This document shows positions 25,614 to 36,437 of a stretch of 51,643 nt of DNA, piece by piece (the stretch's first letter is position 1; each line of letters opens with the position of its first letter). This DNA is from a virus, in the IMG/VR virus record IMGVR_UViG_3300033553_000156, positions 1-51,643 of that record. One strand, 5' to 3'. Both the position numbers and the translations under genes were made by a program. Below the pieces are notes generated by a model. The model did not search any database. It worked only from the letters and a program-made list of their open reading frames with translations, and was not told the origin of the DNA.

Positions 25614-25734
25614 AGATGGGACTGAGCTGGCTATGCTTCAAGCTCACGTTGAAGACGCCCAAGTTTATCATACCTGTAAGGATGCGCATAACGCGCTAGT
25701 GGAGGCAATACATGAAGGCGACAAAAGCAATTGA
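25474..25734 (+). CDS. Rz1: Outer-membrane lipoprotein spanin (Rz1-like)
   Basis: 86 residues. Signal peptide with a lipobox (LLLLSVLTLTGCG, cysteine at about 17) for outer-membrane anchoring. It starts inside the Rz-like gene in a different frame and runs past its end, so the pair is overlapping rather than fully embedded. AAGGAGG precedes the ATG. Confidence 0.85.
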   Translation: MFKFTLLLLSVLTLTGCGYGAWPVKQERVSYPPNMMKKCPEQLSHLKDGTELAMLQAHVEDAQVYHTCKDAHNALVEAIHEGDKSN

Positions 25735-26458
25735 GGATTCATGTATGCTGGAAAAAGATTTGGTTACAAAGCACTCTTCATTGGTAAAGTCTATCGCTTA
25801 CCGATTATTGGTTCGATTGCCGACAAACGTACAAGCCGGTGATTTAATACAAGCTGGTATGATTAGCTTGCTTGAATCCTGGAGGAATTATGACGGTACA
25901 AATGGAGCAAGCTTTGAAACTTACGCGAGGATCAGAATAAAAGGTGCTATGTTAGATGAACTTCGTCGCACTGACTGGGCGCCACGGTCTGTTCATCGTA
26001 AAGCTAGACAAGTTGCAGCAGCGGTATGTGAAATCGAAAACCGAAACGGAAGAAAAGCCAACGCGAGTGAAGTTGCGGAAAAATTAAATATAACACTTCG
26101 GGAATATACTCGCATAGTTAATAGTGCTTCTGACTGCCGTATGCTCAGCACCGACGACATTGGTAAAAACGGGGAAGATTCATTTAAGATAGTTGCAGGT
26201 TCCGAAGTTGATAATCCCTTCAACCAAATACAAGATTTAGAATTTAAAGCGAGTCTGTCCGAAGCAATATCCCTTCTTCCCAACCGTGAACAACTCGTAG
26301 TAAATTTGTATTACAGTGAAGACTTTAACTTTCGTGAAATTGGGGCTATGTTTGACCTAACAGAGTCGAGGATTTGCCAAATTCACAAAAACGCACTAGA
26401 CCGACTTCAAGCGTGGAACAGGAGGTTTGTAAATGAAGAAAACAACGAAGTTGATTGA
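25712..26458 (+). CDS. FliA-family (sigma-28-like) RNA polymerase sigma factor
   Basis: Up to 248 residues; the start may instead be M12 at 25745, because the first codons overlap the spanin gene. All sigma-28 regions are present: region 2 (VRLPTNVQAGDLIQAGMISL, FETYARIRIKGAMLDELRRT, DWAPRSVHRKAR), region 3 (ASEVAEKLNITLREYTRIV) and region 4 (LLPNREQLVVNLYYSEDFNF, then EIGAMFDLTESRICQIHKNA). Length equals cellular FliA. FliA drives flagellar and chemotaxis genes; on a phage it could redirect host transcription to phage or flagellar promoters. I found no convincing TAAA-N15-GCCGATAA promoter in the window. Confidence 0.92.
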   Translation: MKATKAIEDSCMLEKDLVTKHSSLVKSIAYRLLVRLPTNVQAGDLIQAGMISLLESWRNYDGTNGASFETYARIRIKGAMLDELRRTDWAPRSVHRKARQVAAAVCEIENRNGRKANASEVAEKLNITLREYTRIVNSASDCRMLSTDDIGKNGEDSFKIVAGSEVDNPFNQIQDLEFKASLSEAISLLPNREQLVVNLYYSEDFNFREIGAMFDLTESRICQIHKNALDRLQAWNRRFVNEENNEVD

Positions 26459-30993: not shown

Positions 30994-31116
30994 AATTCAT
31001 GTGAAAACAGTAGTTTTCGTATAAAATAGATTAAAAATGACTATTTAGGACTACTATGAACGTACATAACTGTAGAGTACATATAATTATATGACCCTAA
31101 TTATTATGTATGTTAT
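30994..31116. repeat. Dispersed ~115-bp element, copy B
   Basis: Nearly identical to copy A at 27763-27892. It starts with a dyad GAAAAC-AGTA-GTTTTC and shares ATAGATTAAAAATGACTATT, then TACATAACTGTAGAGTACAT and ATTATGTATGTTATA. Here it lies inside a minus-strand operon, between the tiny membrane protein and the 62-residue gene, so simple convergent termination does not explain it. Confidence 0.85.
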
Positions 31117-31232
31117 AGTACTCCATAATTTTGCATAGCTTTCAGTACACCCCAGGCTATTCCGTAGCCTAAGGACATCGAGGCTAAACCTATGGCTATA
31201 ATACCTACCACTATTTCTCCAAACTTTTTCAT
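31113..31232 (-). CDS. 39-residue membrane protein
   Basis: Begins MKKFGEIVVGIIAIGLASMS and consists of one glycine-rich membrane helix. The ATG overlaps the dCMP deaminase stop (ATGA), so it is the last gene of the nucleotide-modification operon. Function unknown. Confidence 0.65.
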   Translation of the reverse strand: MKKFGEIVVGIIAIGLASMSLGYGIAWGVLKAMQNYGVL

Positions 31233-31663
31233 GACCATTTTACCAAGGTTATGCCGGCTTTCTTCGCCAAAGCTTTTACTTCAGGATGAGGATATTCGTC
31301 TTTGAAAACCACTCGTTTACATGACGTATTACAGATCAGCTTCATACAATGTATACAGGGCTGAGTGGTGCAGTACATGGTATCTATACTCAACACATCT
31401 GGACACTGTAATAGAGCATTCTGTTCCGCATGTACCGCTTCACATTTGTGTAAGTCTGATCCAGAAGGTGCATAGGCGCCTTCGCACGGAGAGTCAACAC
31501 ACTCAACGAATCCCATAGGTCTACCGTTGTAGCCCGTAGACAGTATATGGTTTAACTCGTTCACTGCGATAGCTCCAGTCTTACGCCGTACACACGAGCC
31601 TCGTAAACTTACCACCTCTACCATGGTCATGAAGTAGTCGTCGACACTGATTCGATTACTCAT
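31229..31663 (-). CDS. dCMP deaminase
   Basis: 144 residues with the zinc-dependent deaminase core: HAEQN (His79, Glu81) and QPCIHC (Cys103, Cys106). The extra cysteine-rich insert (residues 50-74) is usual for T4-type dCMP deaminases. It converts dCMP to dUMP, feeding ThyX. Overlaps ThyX by eight bases. In a cell where dCMP is also hydroxymethylated, this enzyme sets the split between T and modified C. Confidence 0.93.
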   Translation of the reverse strand: MSNRISVDDYFMTMVEVVSLRGSCVRRKTGAIAVNELNHILSTGYNGRPMGFVECVDSPCEGAYAPSGSDLHKCEAVHAEQNALLQCPDVLSIDTMYCTTQPCIHCMKLICNTSCKRVVFKDEYPHPEVKALAKKAGITLVKWS

Positions 31664-32300
31664 TTATCCACCCCATAGCTTTAGACGTCCAAGGACACAC
31701 TCCGCAAAAGATTTCTTTTATCTCTTTAGCGATTTCCTGATGTTCTTTCTGAACATGCTCTTCATCACGTATCTGTAGATAGTGAATCCAGCTCCTGATC
31801 GATCCAGTCATGTACAACTTGGTAGTAGTGCACAATGGAAGAACCATTCGTGCACTTTCTTTGGCTATACCTTTATACACTAATTCATTGTATAAACGGA
31901 TGGACGCCTGAAGATGCCTATTGACTTTGTCATACAAAGTATTGTCATCACAGTCTTCAGTAGAACTTTGACGATTAGTTGATCCAGCCAAACGCAGCTC
32001 TACCTTCTCGAACTTGTCTGGAGACGCGTATCTCTGGCTAAATTCCTGGAAACTAAAGCTTCGATGACGTAAGATTTGAGCCGCTATGGCTCTCGATGTT
32101 TCGATTTCCACCGTCATATGAGCCATCTCAAACGGTGACCAGTGATGGTTATCGATCAAGAATCGTATCAGTTTAGGCGCCGTAGCCGTGTTGAGCTGAT
32201 TTTCTTGGTTACTTATTCGGGCCAGGAATATGATCAATTCGTCGATCGATTTAATCACCGGTCCAGTCACGTCCGTGGTACTAACGAGTTTCGCGTACAT
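31656..32300 (-). CDS. thyX: FAD-dependent thymidylate synthase ThyX
   Basis: 214 residues with the ThyX signature RHRSFSFQEFSQRY (residues 78-91) and a C-terminal SIRSWIHYLQIRDEEHVQKE segment. It makes dTMP from dUMP using methylene-tetrahydrofolate and FAD. AAGGA lies before the ATG. The same operon also has a ThyA-fold enzyme, so two unrelated synthase folds are present; this supports the ThyA-like one having another substrate. Confidence 0.95.
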   Translation of the reverse strand: MYAKLVSTTDVTGPVIKSIDELIIFLARISNQENQLNTATAPKLIRFLIDNHHWSPFEMAHMTVEIETSRAIAAQILRHRSFSFQEFSQRYASPDKFEKVELRLAGSTNRQSSTEDCDDNTLYDKVNRHLQASIRLYNELVYKGIAKESARMVLPLCTTTKLYMTGSIRSWIHYLQIRDEEHVQKEHQEIAKEIKEIFCGVCPWTSKAMGWINE

Positions 32301-32310
32301 TGTTTATCCT

Positions 32311-33096
32311 TTAACTATTGAGCCAGTTTAAGAAAGGTATACTGTTATCGTACCCTTTAAAATGAGTTATATCCATTGACGGGTTCAGCATAAAGAAAAT
32401 CTCGGGATAGGTCATATCAGGTACATCGATATGTTTATATTCGTTTAACCCATCCTTCACGATATTTTCCAGCATCTTAAAGTGTCGTTCATATACGTGT
32501 AGACTGTCGGCTTTGTGACAGTAATTGCCTACAGGTATATTTAAAACTACTGCTATCATTTCGTGTAAGAAGCTGAAGGCGGGAACATCGTTAGTTATCC
32601 CGAATATGGCATCGTTGCTTCTCATGTTTACCGACATATTCAGCTTACCGTCACGTATACGGAAGCTGATACTCTCAGTACACACAATATCCGTATTACC
32701 TTTGTATAGATGATCTTTATTCAACATAGGTATGATGGCTTGCCTCGAGTCAGAGTCATCACGCAACGTCTCAAGAACCCATCTTGCACCTTGTTGTGAG
32801 CCGAACCAGTATTGACCGTAATTACTGTGGAATCGGCCGTCAGGTTGCTGAATCTTTTTCCACATAGATGCGTGTTCACAGATAGATGCATCGAAAGGGT
32901 CAGCCCGTAAGTACCACTTGAACTCTTCCTTTATGTATTGAAGATTCATTTTTCGTGCGGTGAAGTTGCTGAATCGATCCGCTTTAGATAGATCCATCTG
33001 ATAGTTTTCTATCTCAAGAACTTTCTGTCCTCTAGGACTGGTCACTCGCCCGTTGTTCAACAAGTCTGAGAACATACGATATAACTGTGTCGACAC
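32311..33096 (-). CDS. dCMP hydroxymethylase-like enzyme (ThyA superfamily)
   Basis: 261 residues, GTG start with GGAG at good spacing. ThyA-fold landmarks: nucleophile Cys139 in DIVCTES, IRDGKLNMSVNMRSND (Arg159-Asp162, phosphate/base binding) and SLHVYERH (His200, Tyr202). Aligned by eye to E. coli ThyA, Asn177, which reads the uracil base, is Asp170 here (GITNDVPAF). Asp at this place is the known switch to dCMP in T4 dCMP hydroxymethylase and relatives. Predicted product 5-hydroxymethyl-dCMP; a dCMP methylase is the main alternative. Overlaps the kinase gene by 65 bases. Confidence 0.85.
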   Translation of the reverse strand: MSTQLYRMFSDLLNNGRVTSPRGQKVLEIENYQMDLSKADRFSNFTARKMNLQYIKEEFKWYLRADPFDASICEHASMWKKIQQPDGRFHSNYGQYWFGSQQGARWVLETLRDDSDSRQAIIPMLNKDHLYKGNTDIVCTESISFRIRDGKLNMSVNMRSNDAIFGITNDVPAFSFLHEMIAVVLNIPVGNYCHKADSLHVYERHFKMLENIVKDGLNEYKHIDVPDMTYPEIFFMLNPSMDITHFKGYDNSIPFLNWLNS

Positions 33097-33553
33097 TGTG
33101 TTTTCTCCAATTAAAAGGTAACATGGTAAATAACGAGGAGCATTCCTTCATCATGTCCTCATATCTTCCACAAATAGCTTCACGATTTTCTTCGATAAAT
33201 CGTAAATGCTCATCCGTATCATGATCTTTTACAACATGACTCGAGTCGTCCCAGGTCGTAGAGCAGTAGATGATGATGCAATCTTTAGCCATCATCTCTC
33301 TGACACCATAAAATACATTATGATACGGGGTATCTTTATTGTAGCAAGGCTCACTTATAGCCGTTACTCGATCCAGTAAATACCCCTCCTTACAACAATC
33401 AAGTTGCTCCTGAAATCTTACCACCATCTCTTTCAGGTCTTTAGGAGGCGGACCTGCCGTATATATGGGCATATTTAATCGGTTAGCCAACTCTTTGATA
33501 AGAGTTGACTTACCCATGTTATCGAAGCCTTCAACGATTATTGAGTTTTTCAT
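33032..33553 (-). CDS. Deoxynucleoside/deoxynucleotide kinase (thymidylate kinase-like)
   Basis: 173 residues with P-loop GFDNMGKST (9-17) and the DR motif LLDRVTAISE (Asp61, Arg62), followed by a lid-like charged region. It belongs to the thymidylate/deoxynucleoside kinase fold. Embedded between the MazG-like and hydroxymethylase genes, it most plausibly phosphorylates hydroxymethyl-dCMP, the job of gp1 in T4 (a different kinase family). Substrate is inferred from context; a plain dTMP or dNMP kinase is possible. Confidence 0.83.
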   Translation of the reverse strand: MKNSIIVEGFDNMGKSTLIKELANRLNMPIYTAGPPPKDLKEMVVRFQEQLDCCKEGYLLDRVTAISEPCYNKDTPYHNVFYGVREMMAKDCIIIYCSTTWDDSSHVVKDHDTDEHLRFIEENREAICGRYEDMMKECSSLFTMLPFNWRKHSVDTVISYVLRLVEQRASDQS

Positions 33554-33938
33554 GGATAATTCCTGAAATCCTTTGTTCTGGGCCTACCCAACTGTCGTTC
33601 TTAACTGCATCGGCCGCTCCAGTATCTCTCTTGGCATTGACGCCTTTCTTCTTAGTCATATTGGCCAAATGGACCGCACCGAAGCATTGATGAATATCGT
33701 TCTCATCGAGTCCCAGCTTGTACAGAACTCCAACATTGAAGTACACGAGATCGAGTAAGGCATCGATACACCCCACCAGATTCTCTTCTGCATGGGCCTC
33801 TTGAAACTCTTGAATCTCTTCCAACAGGCATTTGATACTGATATTGTACTCTTCAGAGTACAAAAGCTGGGGACTCCGTTGTCGAATGCCCAGGATAATT
33901 TGGTTGAAGTCGATGATGTCACTTACGATATTATTCAT
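33531..33938 (-). CDS. MazG-like all-alpha NTP pyrophosphohydrolase
   Basis: 135 residues with the acidic metal-binding pattern of the MazG/dUTPase-like superfamily: LLEEIQEFQEA (Glu40, Glu41, Glu44) and CIDALLDLVYFNVG (Asp59, Asp63). These enzymes split nucleoside triphosphates to monophosphate and pyrophosphate. In this operon the logical substrate is dCTP (a role like T4 dCTPase gp56), clearing ordinary C from the pool and providing dCMP. It overlaps both neighbours. Confidence 0.82.
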   Translation of the reverse strand: MNNIVSDIIDFNQIILGIRQRSPQLLYSEEYNISIKCLLEEIQEFQEAHAEENLVGCIDALLDLVYFNVGVLYKLGLDENDIHQCFGAVHLANMTKKKGVNAKRDTGAADAVKNDSWVGPEQRISGIIHEKLNNR

Positions 33939-35565
33939 GTGATGCTCCCATTACTACTGTTACGACCCGATTATCGACATCATTCCCCTTCTGATAGGAA
34001 TGACATCTCATTATATCGTTTTCCTTGAAAACGATAGGTTTGCCGTGCTCATTAAAGCTAGTATTTATGAGTACGCCAAAGGTGTTAAGTACATCGCTCA
34101 AATACGGGTCGTCTCTTCGACTAACTATCTGAGGTCGGCACGTTCTGGTGGAGCTCAAGGGTACGTTGTGAGTTACCCCGTGCATCTCTTCGGGTAAATT
34201 GTGTTCACAATCTCTGGCACACGACATGTACTCCAGAGATTTGACGATCCTGTGTTGACCCATAAATATCTCGTCTGCGAATTTCTCTGATACTATAGGC
34301 GCCATAGGCATTATAGTAGATCGTGAATTTAGATTATTTATGTATTCGACATTTCCTTTGGAAGGTAAAGCCAAAGTGCTTGTGTGACCCAATGCTCGGG
34401 CTCCGAATTCCATACTACCTCTTACCAGATTCACTATCGAGCCATTATTCAACAATGATACCACTTGGTGCGGATCAAGACTGACAAGTAGATCGTCCAT
34501 CTTGGGTATATCGATCAATGATCTATGGCCCCAGTAAAGATGTCCAGGCCATTTCAGAGCGGTGTACGAAGCACATAGTCCGATAGCCGCACCCTGATCA
34601 CCTGATAAAGGCATGACACACGTAAGCCCCGAGACATGCTTAGCTATCTCGTTATTGAGCTTCACGTTAAGGAATACTCCGCCTACCAGGTTGGCGTTCC
34701 TTATCTTGAAATTGTCGAATATCTTCAACATCACATTTTGAACGACTGTCTGGACAAAGAATGACACAGCCACTCTCGTAGTCATACCACTCATGGTATG
34801 TGGACCTAAATGAATTCTCATACCAAGAATACCCAAAGTATCTCGAATTTTCTTTTTAGTCGCCACCAGAGCATCGATGGAGATCATCGGATCGAAGGCT
34901 GAAGATATGCTACCAGACATTATATCAGTGTACATGTCATCTGTGACAATATGAGCCATATCGAGTATTTCGTCGATCAAATGAGTACCGCCGAATACTT
35001 CTTCGATATGACCTTCGTACCCTAACAGCTTGTACTCGTCCTGATTCTCTTTCATATCCAGATAAGACGTGGCATATTGATAAAGTAAGCCGATGGATCG
35101 ACCGAATCCAAACGACCTGAAAATCAATTCACCATTATAGCCATAGATCGACAGGACTTCTCCGTAACTACCGAAGCCGTCTGCCACCACTGTGTGAGTA
35201 TCGAAAGGCATATCGGCCCCCGCGAATACTCTCGCACTGTTCGCATGTGCATCGTGATGACTGAACTCTTTCGATAGAGTGTGAATTTTAGCTTTCGGAA
35301 AAACCTTCTTCATGAAGATTTCGTTGTACCACTTACCCTGATCTTCCAGAGGTTTGTCTGGATTGGTAAACCAATGAGAGATGAATATGTCCGTCACCTC
35401 TTCTATCGGATACCATTTGGAAATCTCCATTATTGCTTCGACTGGGAACGATGAGTCTGATTTTACTCCGGTCAATCGTTCGTTTTCGTAGCCGATCAAA
35501 ATCTCATTACCTTCCACAAGGATGGCTGAAGAGTTATGCCCTAAGGTCAACAGTAAAAGACTCAT
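33931..35565 (-). CDS. TobZ/NodU-type carbamoyltransferase
   Basis: 544 residues, full family length. N-terminal domain with metal-site motif FSHHDAHANS (residues 101-110), VADGFGSYGE (128-136, nucleotide-type), GGVFLNVKLN and a PLSGDQGAAIG loop; C-terminal domain with EFGARALGHTSTLALP and INTSFNEHGKPIV. These enzymes carbamoylate hydroxyls from carbamoyl phosphate and ATP. A phage-type 5-hydroxymethylcytosine carbamoyltransferase yielding 5-carbamoyloxymethylcytosine has been reported from metagenomic phage DNA (MetaGPA work, from memory). The neighbouring dCMP hydroxymethylase-like gene makes the same reaction likely here. Confidence 0.9.
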   Translation of the reverse strand: MSLLLLTLGHNSSAILVEGNEILIGYENERLTGVKSDSSFPVEAIMEISKWYPIEEVTDIFISHWFTNPDKPLEDQGKWYNEIFMKKVFPKAKIHTLSKEFSHHDAHANSARVFAGADMPFDTHTVVADGFGSYGEVLSIYGYNGELIFRSFGFGRSIGLLYQYATSYLDMKENQDEYKLLGYEGHIEEVFGGTHLIDEILDMAHIVTDDMYTDIMSGSISSAFDPMISIDALVATKKKIRDTLGILGMRIHLGPHTMSGMTTRVAVSFFVQTVVQNVMLKIFDNFKIRNANLVGGVFLNVKLNNEIAKHVSGLTCVMPLSGDQGAAIGLCASYTALKWPGHLYWGHRSLIDIPKMDDLLVSLDPHQVVSLLNNGSIVNLVRGSMEFGARALGHTSTLALPSKGNVEYINNLNSRSTIMPMAPIVSEKFADEIFMGQHRIVKSLEYMSCARDCEHNLPEEMHGVTHNVPLSSTRTCRPQIVSRRDDPYLSDVLNTFGVLINTSFNEHGKPIVFKENDIMRCHSYQKGNDVDNRVVTVVMGASHE

Positions 35566-35630: not shown

Positions 35631-36437
35631 TTAACCCCAGTTATCGAGGATGTCGCCTGTACTAGCTTTTACCTTTTCGTCGTTATTGGCGATAGGGTTG
35701 TTCGGCTTGGACGCATCAACCGTGGATTCATTCGAATCGCCTGAAGAGGCTACTGCGGACGCGTCAAATTCGTCCCACTCACGTTTTTGCGAACGCTCGA
35801 GGGTCGGTACTACAAGTTCTTCTGACAAGAAGTCTTTGAAATCGAATTCGACCTGGGGAAAATCTGAATCTGCCATAGTGATGGTCGTGATGACCGATGA
35901 CAGGGGAATCTTGTTGGATACCAACTTCTTACCATAGTCTGATAGAGACCTGAGAGAGCTGACGGTAACATTCAGAATATACGGTACACCTTTGACCGGG
36001 TCTGAAGCCTTGGTGATAAACAGTCGTTTGCTGTCTTTGCAAGACTTTGCCTTCTTACCTGTCATCGACTTGGTACTACCCCACTTATTGTTGGGGCAGT
36101 CATGGCACGTAGGATTGACTGGTGAAGATATCCACGAGTCCGGCCGAATACCGTCAGAGCTAGAGCAGTCTGGCGGACTGTTGTCACCCGGCTGATAACC
36201 ATTGAGATAAAAGGTTTTGGCCATGCCTTTTTCGGGTTGTACCCCCAATACGACCACGTTGATAGGGCCAGGTACTTTAGCTACTTCTTCACCATCTTTG
36301 ATGAAGCGGAATTGTCGTCCCTTCAGACTGATACGAGGTACACTACCTCCGGCAGATGTGATAAGACTTTCACTTGTTTGCTGATTCTGAGCAATCAAGG
36401 CTTGCATATGGGCTGGAATTGCGATTTCATTACTCAT
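35631..36437 (-). CDS. Predicted single-stranded DNA-binding protein
   Basis: 268 residues. The core is beta-rich with a cysteine cluster (PPDCSSSDG, PTCHDCPNNKWGS, KSCKDSKR; about residues 93-135) that may bind zinc. The last ~35 residues are a disordered acidic tail ending DILDNWG, as in ssDNA-binding proteins that recruit partners. I recognise the cysteine block from a conserved phage replication protein. It is next to the helicase and polymerase genes. The function is likely but not certain. Confidence 0.65.
   Translation of the reverse strand: MSNEIAIPAHMQALIAQNQQTSESLITSAGGSVPRISLKGRQFRFIKDGEEVAKVPGPINVVVLGVQPEKGMAKTFYLNGYQPGDNSPPDCSSSDGIRPDSWISSPVNPTCHDCPNNKWGSTKSMTGKKAKSCKDSKRLFITKASDPVKGVPYILNVTVSSLRSLSDYGKKLVSNKIPLSSVITTITMADSDFPQVEFDFKDFLSEELVVPTLERSQKREWDEFDASAVASSGDSNESTVDASKPNNPIANNDEKVKASTGDILDNWG

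Follow-up and report, generated by a model that had tools for sequence, protein, structure and literature searches.

A phage operon predicted to make a carbamoyl-capped cytosine, with a ThyX gene as a local variant of a known cassette

Does a cluster of nucleotide genes in the replication module of a tailed phage provide a carbamoyl-capped cytosine for the phage genome? We addressed this question in the window, the whole 51,643-base IMG/VR virus record, which carries tailed-phage head, portal, terminase, tape-measure and tail genes on its plus strand and the replication module on its minus strand. This module contains six tightly packed genes that run on the minus strand from 35565 to 31229 in the order carbamoyltransferase (CT), MazG/PRA-PH pyrophosphohydrolase, P-loop kinase, ThyA-fold protein, ThyX and dCMP deaminase. 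The reading frames overlap by 8 bp (CT/MazG), 23 bp (MazG/kinase), 65 bp (kinase/ThyA-fold) and 8 bp (ThyX/deaminase), and the 10 bp spacing between the ThyA-fold and ThyX genes is the sole gap in the set. Shine-Dalgarno-like purine stretches were seen upstream of the gene starts, promoter and terminator scans gave no more matches than in shuffles, and a tRNA search found none. The original prediction of six consecutive, mostly overlapping genes of these families was borne out for every ORF. Its range of 31113-35565 does hold the gene set, although the low end lies some 116 bp beyond the stop codon of the deaminase gene.

The first gene of the set (33931..35565, minus strand, 544 aa) encodes a predicted 5-hydroxymethylcytosine carbamoyltransferase of the TobZ/NodU family. 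The ORF is full length, both PF02543 and PF16861 score above cut-off, and the protein shares 34% identity (270 bits) across its full length with an assayed 5hmdC carbamoyltransferase that converts 5hmdC in ssDNA and 5hmdCTP, not 5mdCTP or 5hmdUTP (PMC8670742). In a CT tree of 71 rows, the window protein, the assayed enzyme, Xp15 and the Acinetobacter CTs form one 22-row clade (support 98/90). The metal-site residues H103, H107, D129 and D323 are kept in every row. Three further positions, TobZ W408, G421 and R423, have been tied to modified DNA (PMC8670742). Mapped by motif spacing in alignments with TobZ relatives, and not on TobZ itself, the R423 site is occupied by Thr in the window CT and the other cassette CTs, with Ser in the most divergent one, and by Arg in three cyanophage CTs, while in the window CT the W408 site is Leu and G421 is an unchanged Gly.

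One feature of this protein raises the question of whether it is fully active. The motif that reads EFGPRAL in most homologs is EFGARAL in the window CT, and this Pro-to-Ala change at a mostly conserved site, along with the retained Gly421, would fit a weak or inactive CT, in which case the same pathway would yield a partial cap or plain 5hmC. However, Ala or Ser is also found at the Pro site in the neighboring cassettes L011, L012, L013, L021 and L022, Gly421 is also present in L003, L012, L022 and L083, and the uninterrupted ORF has its metal site intact, all of which make a weak CT improbable.

The acceptor for an active CT would be supplied by the ThyA-fold protein (32311..33096, minus strand, 261 aa, GTG start, PF00303), a predicted dCMP hydroxymethylase. 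Among solved structures, T4 dCMP hydroxymethylase (77.7 bits) ranks first and CMP hydroxymethylase (73.5 bits) second, with all thymidylate synthases behind, and the protein scores under every NCBIfam thymidylate synthase cut-off. The catalytic Cys146 and Glu58 are present and, in E. coli ThyA numbering, the protein carries Asp177, Thr147 and Ile83 and ends without the VAV-type ThyA C-terminal tail. Aeromonas phage 31 gp42 shares Asp177 and Thr147 with the window protein, and its residue 83 is Val. In alignments the Asp falls on that of T4 dCMP hydroxymethylase and on residue 177 of E. coli ThyA, confirming the dCMP-type Asp of the original prediction, and the same-genome controls, namely four CT records with a second, strong ThyA, have Asn177, His147, Trp83 and a VAV-type tail in that second protein (4/4). 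Among the CT-linked ThyA-fold copies, Asp177 occurs in 80/80 and Thr147 in 77/80 scored rows, a set that includes some near-duplicates. The 177/147 pattern matches the MetaGPA report for modified contigs (PMC8670742). These residues mark the protein as a dCMP-type enzyme, and we strongly infer that its product would be 5hm-dCMP rather than 5m-dCMP.

Asp177 by itself also fits an Xp12-type dCMP methylase. It signals dCMP preference and not hydration, and Asn-to-Asp ThyA variants yield 5mdCMP (PMC8670742); a window enzyme that made 5-methyl-dCMP, as in phage Xp12, would leave 5mC in the DNA and the CT acting on something else. This is very unlikely given that the protein sides with gp42, not ThyA, at position 83 and in lacking the ThyA tail, that CT and the Asp177 protein are linked near-constantly, and that the proven CT requires a hydroxymethyl acceptor and ignores 5mdCTP. 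Carbamoylation of 5hmU was rejected on the basis of Asp177 and the inactivity of the CT homolog on 5hmdUTP.

How widely are these genes held together? A viral-contig scan with a single CT sequence gave no matches, and a scan with a five-sequence CT alignment returned 67 CT loci, or 62 after near-duplicates were removed, including Xp15, Effie and BF503P1. The flanks of these 62 loci contain a ThyA-fold gene in 57 cases, a deaminase in 36, a kinase in 23 and MazG in 22. The strict order CT-MazG-kinase-hydroxymethylase-deaminase was found in 21 of them, with a 22nd (L028) blurred only by an over-long ORF call. When whole records were searched, 52 of 53 CT records were found to have a PF00303 protein. 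Bacteroides fragilis phages also carry CT and hydroxymethylase genes. Because the gene order is conserved in many divergent contigs, chance adjacency is ruled out.

The surroundings of the cassette are also recurrent. Xp15-like loci have a helicase and a possible ssDNA-binding gene on one side and a DNA ligase on the other. In Rhizobium phage RHph_TM3_14A, the helicase and a homolog of the upstream gene keep the same order with no annotated cassette after them, which suggests that the cassette is a module. In the window, this conserved gene lies directly upstream of CT (35631..36437, minus strand; synteny in about 20 loci) and its product has an acidic tail and a terminal Trp that is invariant in the homologs. 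An AF2 model of it was weak and gave no significant fold match. Judging by the tail alone, it is possibly an ssDNA-binding protein; it is not an enzyme of the pathway.

The three cyanophage CTs lie outside the 22-row clade on long branches and their neighborhoods consist of unrelated genes. Since cyanophages carry related CTs in such settings, the CT family is not always DNA-modifying, and PHROG 1601 files the CT as "moron, auxiliary metabolic gene". An auxiliary Nol/NodU-like CT whose substrate is a sugar or small molecule, unconnected with DNA, would fit that annotation and the cyanophage homologs but is highly improbable for a protein that shares a clade with the assayed 5hmdC enzyme, has the R423-to-Thr change (at a site placed by motif spacing) and is encoded by a gene that overlaps, and keeps a conserved order with, its nucleotide-gene neighbors.

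Two further enzymes would connect the nucleotide pool to a carbamoylated cytosine. The MazG/PRA-PH-like nucleotide pyrophosphohydrolase (33531..33938, minus strand, 135 aa, PF01503) is a proposed dCTP, perhaps also dUTP, pyrophosphatase. Its acidic residues E40, E41, E44, D59 and D63 (EExxE, DxxxD) are invariant in 19 cassette homologs, and its closest solved relatives, DR2231 and a putative NTP pyrophosphohydrolase, are both weakly similar. Deduced from the pathway, its substrate would be dCTP, and it could prefer dUTP. The P-loop nucleoside-monophosphate kinase (33032..33553, minus strand, 173 aa; PHROG 761, thymidylate kinase) had no Pfam match and no usable match to PDB sequences, so its fold was predicted. 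The AF2 model (pLDDT 90) had YorR as its top Foldseek match followed by deoxynucleoside and thymidylate kinases, and the P-loop and DR motif are invariant or nearly so in 23 homologs. We propose it as a 5hm-dCMP kinase, as this would be its substrate in the pathway.

The last two genes are ThyX (31656..32300, minus strand, 214 aa, PF02511), a flavin-dependent thymidylate synthase, and a dCMP deaminase (31229..31663, minus strand, 144 aa; PF00383; PHROG 174, dCMP deaminase) whose translation carries the HAE and PCxxC zinc motifs. ThyX scores 177 bits against TIGR02170 (cut-off 87.9) and has the RHR(x)7S motif, and its nearest phage relatives, in cyanophages and others, are about 50% identical. 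Of the 53 CT records, at least 12 contain a ThyX above the Pfam cut-off and at least 4 a strong ThyA, both counts being minima as many of these records are fragments. A ThyX between hydroxymethylase and deaminase was seen in one other contig, L096. We do not read the two as the same insertion because the L096 ThyX is only 25% identical to that of the window; finding so distant a protein at this position suggests that the slot has been filled more than once. The original prediction had included ThyX in the pathway and the gene is indeed canonical, but it is best read as providing dTMP beside the pathway and not as part of cytosine modification. ThyX as a base-modifying enzyme was rejected, being canonical and absent from most cassettes. 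THF, not DHF, is the folate product of both ThyX and a hydroxymethylase, so that neither enzyme would require dihydrofolate reductase. It is conceivable, though we hold it only tentatively, that the window encodes a DHFR-independent pathway in which an adjacent THF-releasing hydroxymethylase and ThyX split one dCMP pool between 5-carbamoyloxymethyl-dCTP and dTTP without host ThyA or DHFR.

Taken together, the operon very probably makes a carbamoyl-capped cytosine for the phage genome. MazG would presumably convert dCTP to dCMP and the ThyA-fold enzyme, with methylene-THF, would in all probability turn part of this dCMP into 5hm-dCMP, which the kinase may then carry towards 5hm-dCTP with the host finishing the step. 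The polymerase would put 5hm-dCTP in at dC positions, and CT, using carbamoyl phosphate and ATP, would convert the hydroxymethyl to a carbamoyloxymethyl group on either 5hm-dCTP or ssDNA near the fork; a known CT homolog acts in vitro on both the triphosphate and ssDNA (PMC8670742). From the remaining dCMP the deaminase would form dUMP for methylation by ThyX, which would keep dTTP supplied while dCTP is drained. We infer full cytosine replacement in the DNA, and the benefit is likely to be resistance to cytosine-reading nucleases, an armor against bacterial enzymes.

This pathway follows the same logic as T4 hydroxymethylcytosine synthesis (gp56 dCTPase, gp42 hydroxymethylase, gp1 kinase, Cd, Td and glucosyltransferases), and the window hydroxymethylase is homologous to T4 gp42. 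Unlike T4, the window would have a carbamoyl cap in place of glucose, a compact contiguous operon, and ThyX rather than Td. The carbamoyl cap in T4-like logic that had been proposed for this locus holds up given that the window CT is homologous over its full length to the proven 5hmdC CT and falls in its clade, and given the gp42-like active site, the conserved synteny and the contrast with the ThyA proteins of the same genomes. In all, the functional reading of the operon is well supported at the level of sequence.

The novelty of the system, however, had been overstated. A 2021 paper had already described the CT enzyme, its product, and the thymidylate synthase, PRA-PH and dCMP deaminase domains that occur together with CT (PMC8670742). 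The MetaGPA sewage-phage contigs of that study (eLife 2021, PMC8670742) resemble the window in having a homologous CT of the same clade linked to an Asp177 thymidylate-synthase homolog, PRA-PH and dCMP deaminase, although their CT is only 34% identical to that of the window. Neither ThyX nor Xp15 appears in the paper (PMC8670742), and the kinase and gene order come from the present sequences. Xanthomonas phage Xp15 (NC_007024) has at gp35-gp40 a collinear upstream gene, CT (41% identity), MazG, kinase, Asp177 hydroxymethylase and deaminase, followed by ligase. Unlike the window, it has no ThyX between hydroxymethylase and deaminase but a divergent ThyX-like gene elsewhere, at about 43.7 kb. 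The Acinetobacter phages Effie and HHU4 have the cassette order of the window with no ThyX at that place, and Effie differs further in having a true ThyA with Asn177 elsewhere in its genome and no ThyX match found in it. Acinetobacter phage MD-2021a has CT and ThyA-fold matches in matching orientation. With the enzyme and its partners on record since 2021 and the whole cassette present in the deposited genomes of Xp15, Effie and HHU4, the window operon is a further example of a known system and not a new one, with the ThyX insertion as a local variant.

In the 2021 work the enzyme was proven in vitro, and the base in a phage genome was predicted, not shown (PMC8670742). A full-text search of the non-subscription literature found no other paper on 5-carbamoyloxymethyl-dC and no report of the base in virion DNA. 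The assayed metagenomic enzyme now has a link to cultured phages that carry the conserved cassette, namely Xp15 of Xanthomonas and Effie and HHU4 of Acinetobacter. These cultured carriers make virion 5-carbamoyloxymethylcytosine, and what the base protects against, directly testable. More generally, the labels "Nol-like carbamoyltransferase" and "thymidylate synthase" can hide a DNA-modification pathway.

Directly upstream of the gene for the TobZ/NodU-family carbamoyltransferase (CT), the proposed 5-hydroxymethylcytosine capping enzyme, lies a gene without an assigned function (window 35631-36437) whose product has an acidic tail and an invariant terminal Trp. Its homologues adjoin the CT on the upstream side in about 20 loci, and the gene is also found in Rhizobium and Pseudomonas phages with no annotated cassette adjoining. 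The window additionally encodes an RNA polymerase sigma-factor-like protein (25712-26458; PHROG 351).

Some CT loci carry two ThyA-fold paralogues, as in Bacteroides phage BF503P1 (L004, 10456-11262 and 13335-14015); such pairs were also observed at L034, L036, L039, L040, L056 and L057. Both paralogues have Asp177 (E. coli ThyA numbering), the dCMP-type residue. The first paralogue has Met, Leu or Ile at the position of the catalytic Glu58 and Tyr instead of Trp80, and these substitutions suggest a pseudo-enzyme or partner subunit. At six other loci (L037, L041, L050, L051, L061 and L072) the ThyA-fold gene immediately precedes the CT, and its product has Gln in place of Glu58; three records of this group (G025, G033 and G048) also encode a separate true ThyA.

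At L163 (1479-4478), three genes occupy the place of a CT ahead of a MazG-kinase-hydroxymethylase-deaminase cassette; no Pfam family scored above its cut-off for these three, which gave one weak PLP-enzyme match. L119 (4176-5030) and the similar loci L121-L126, L129, L133 and L134 have MazG-hydroxymethylase-deaminase cassettes with no CT in the fetched stretch. Since a SAM-methyltransferase-like gene lies immediately upstream in L119, the capping step may be exchanged between phages.
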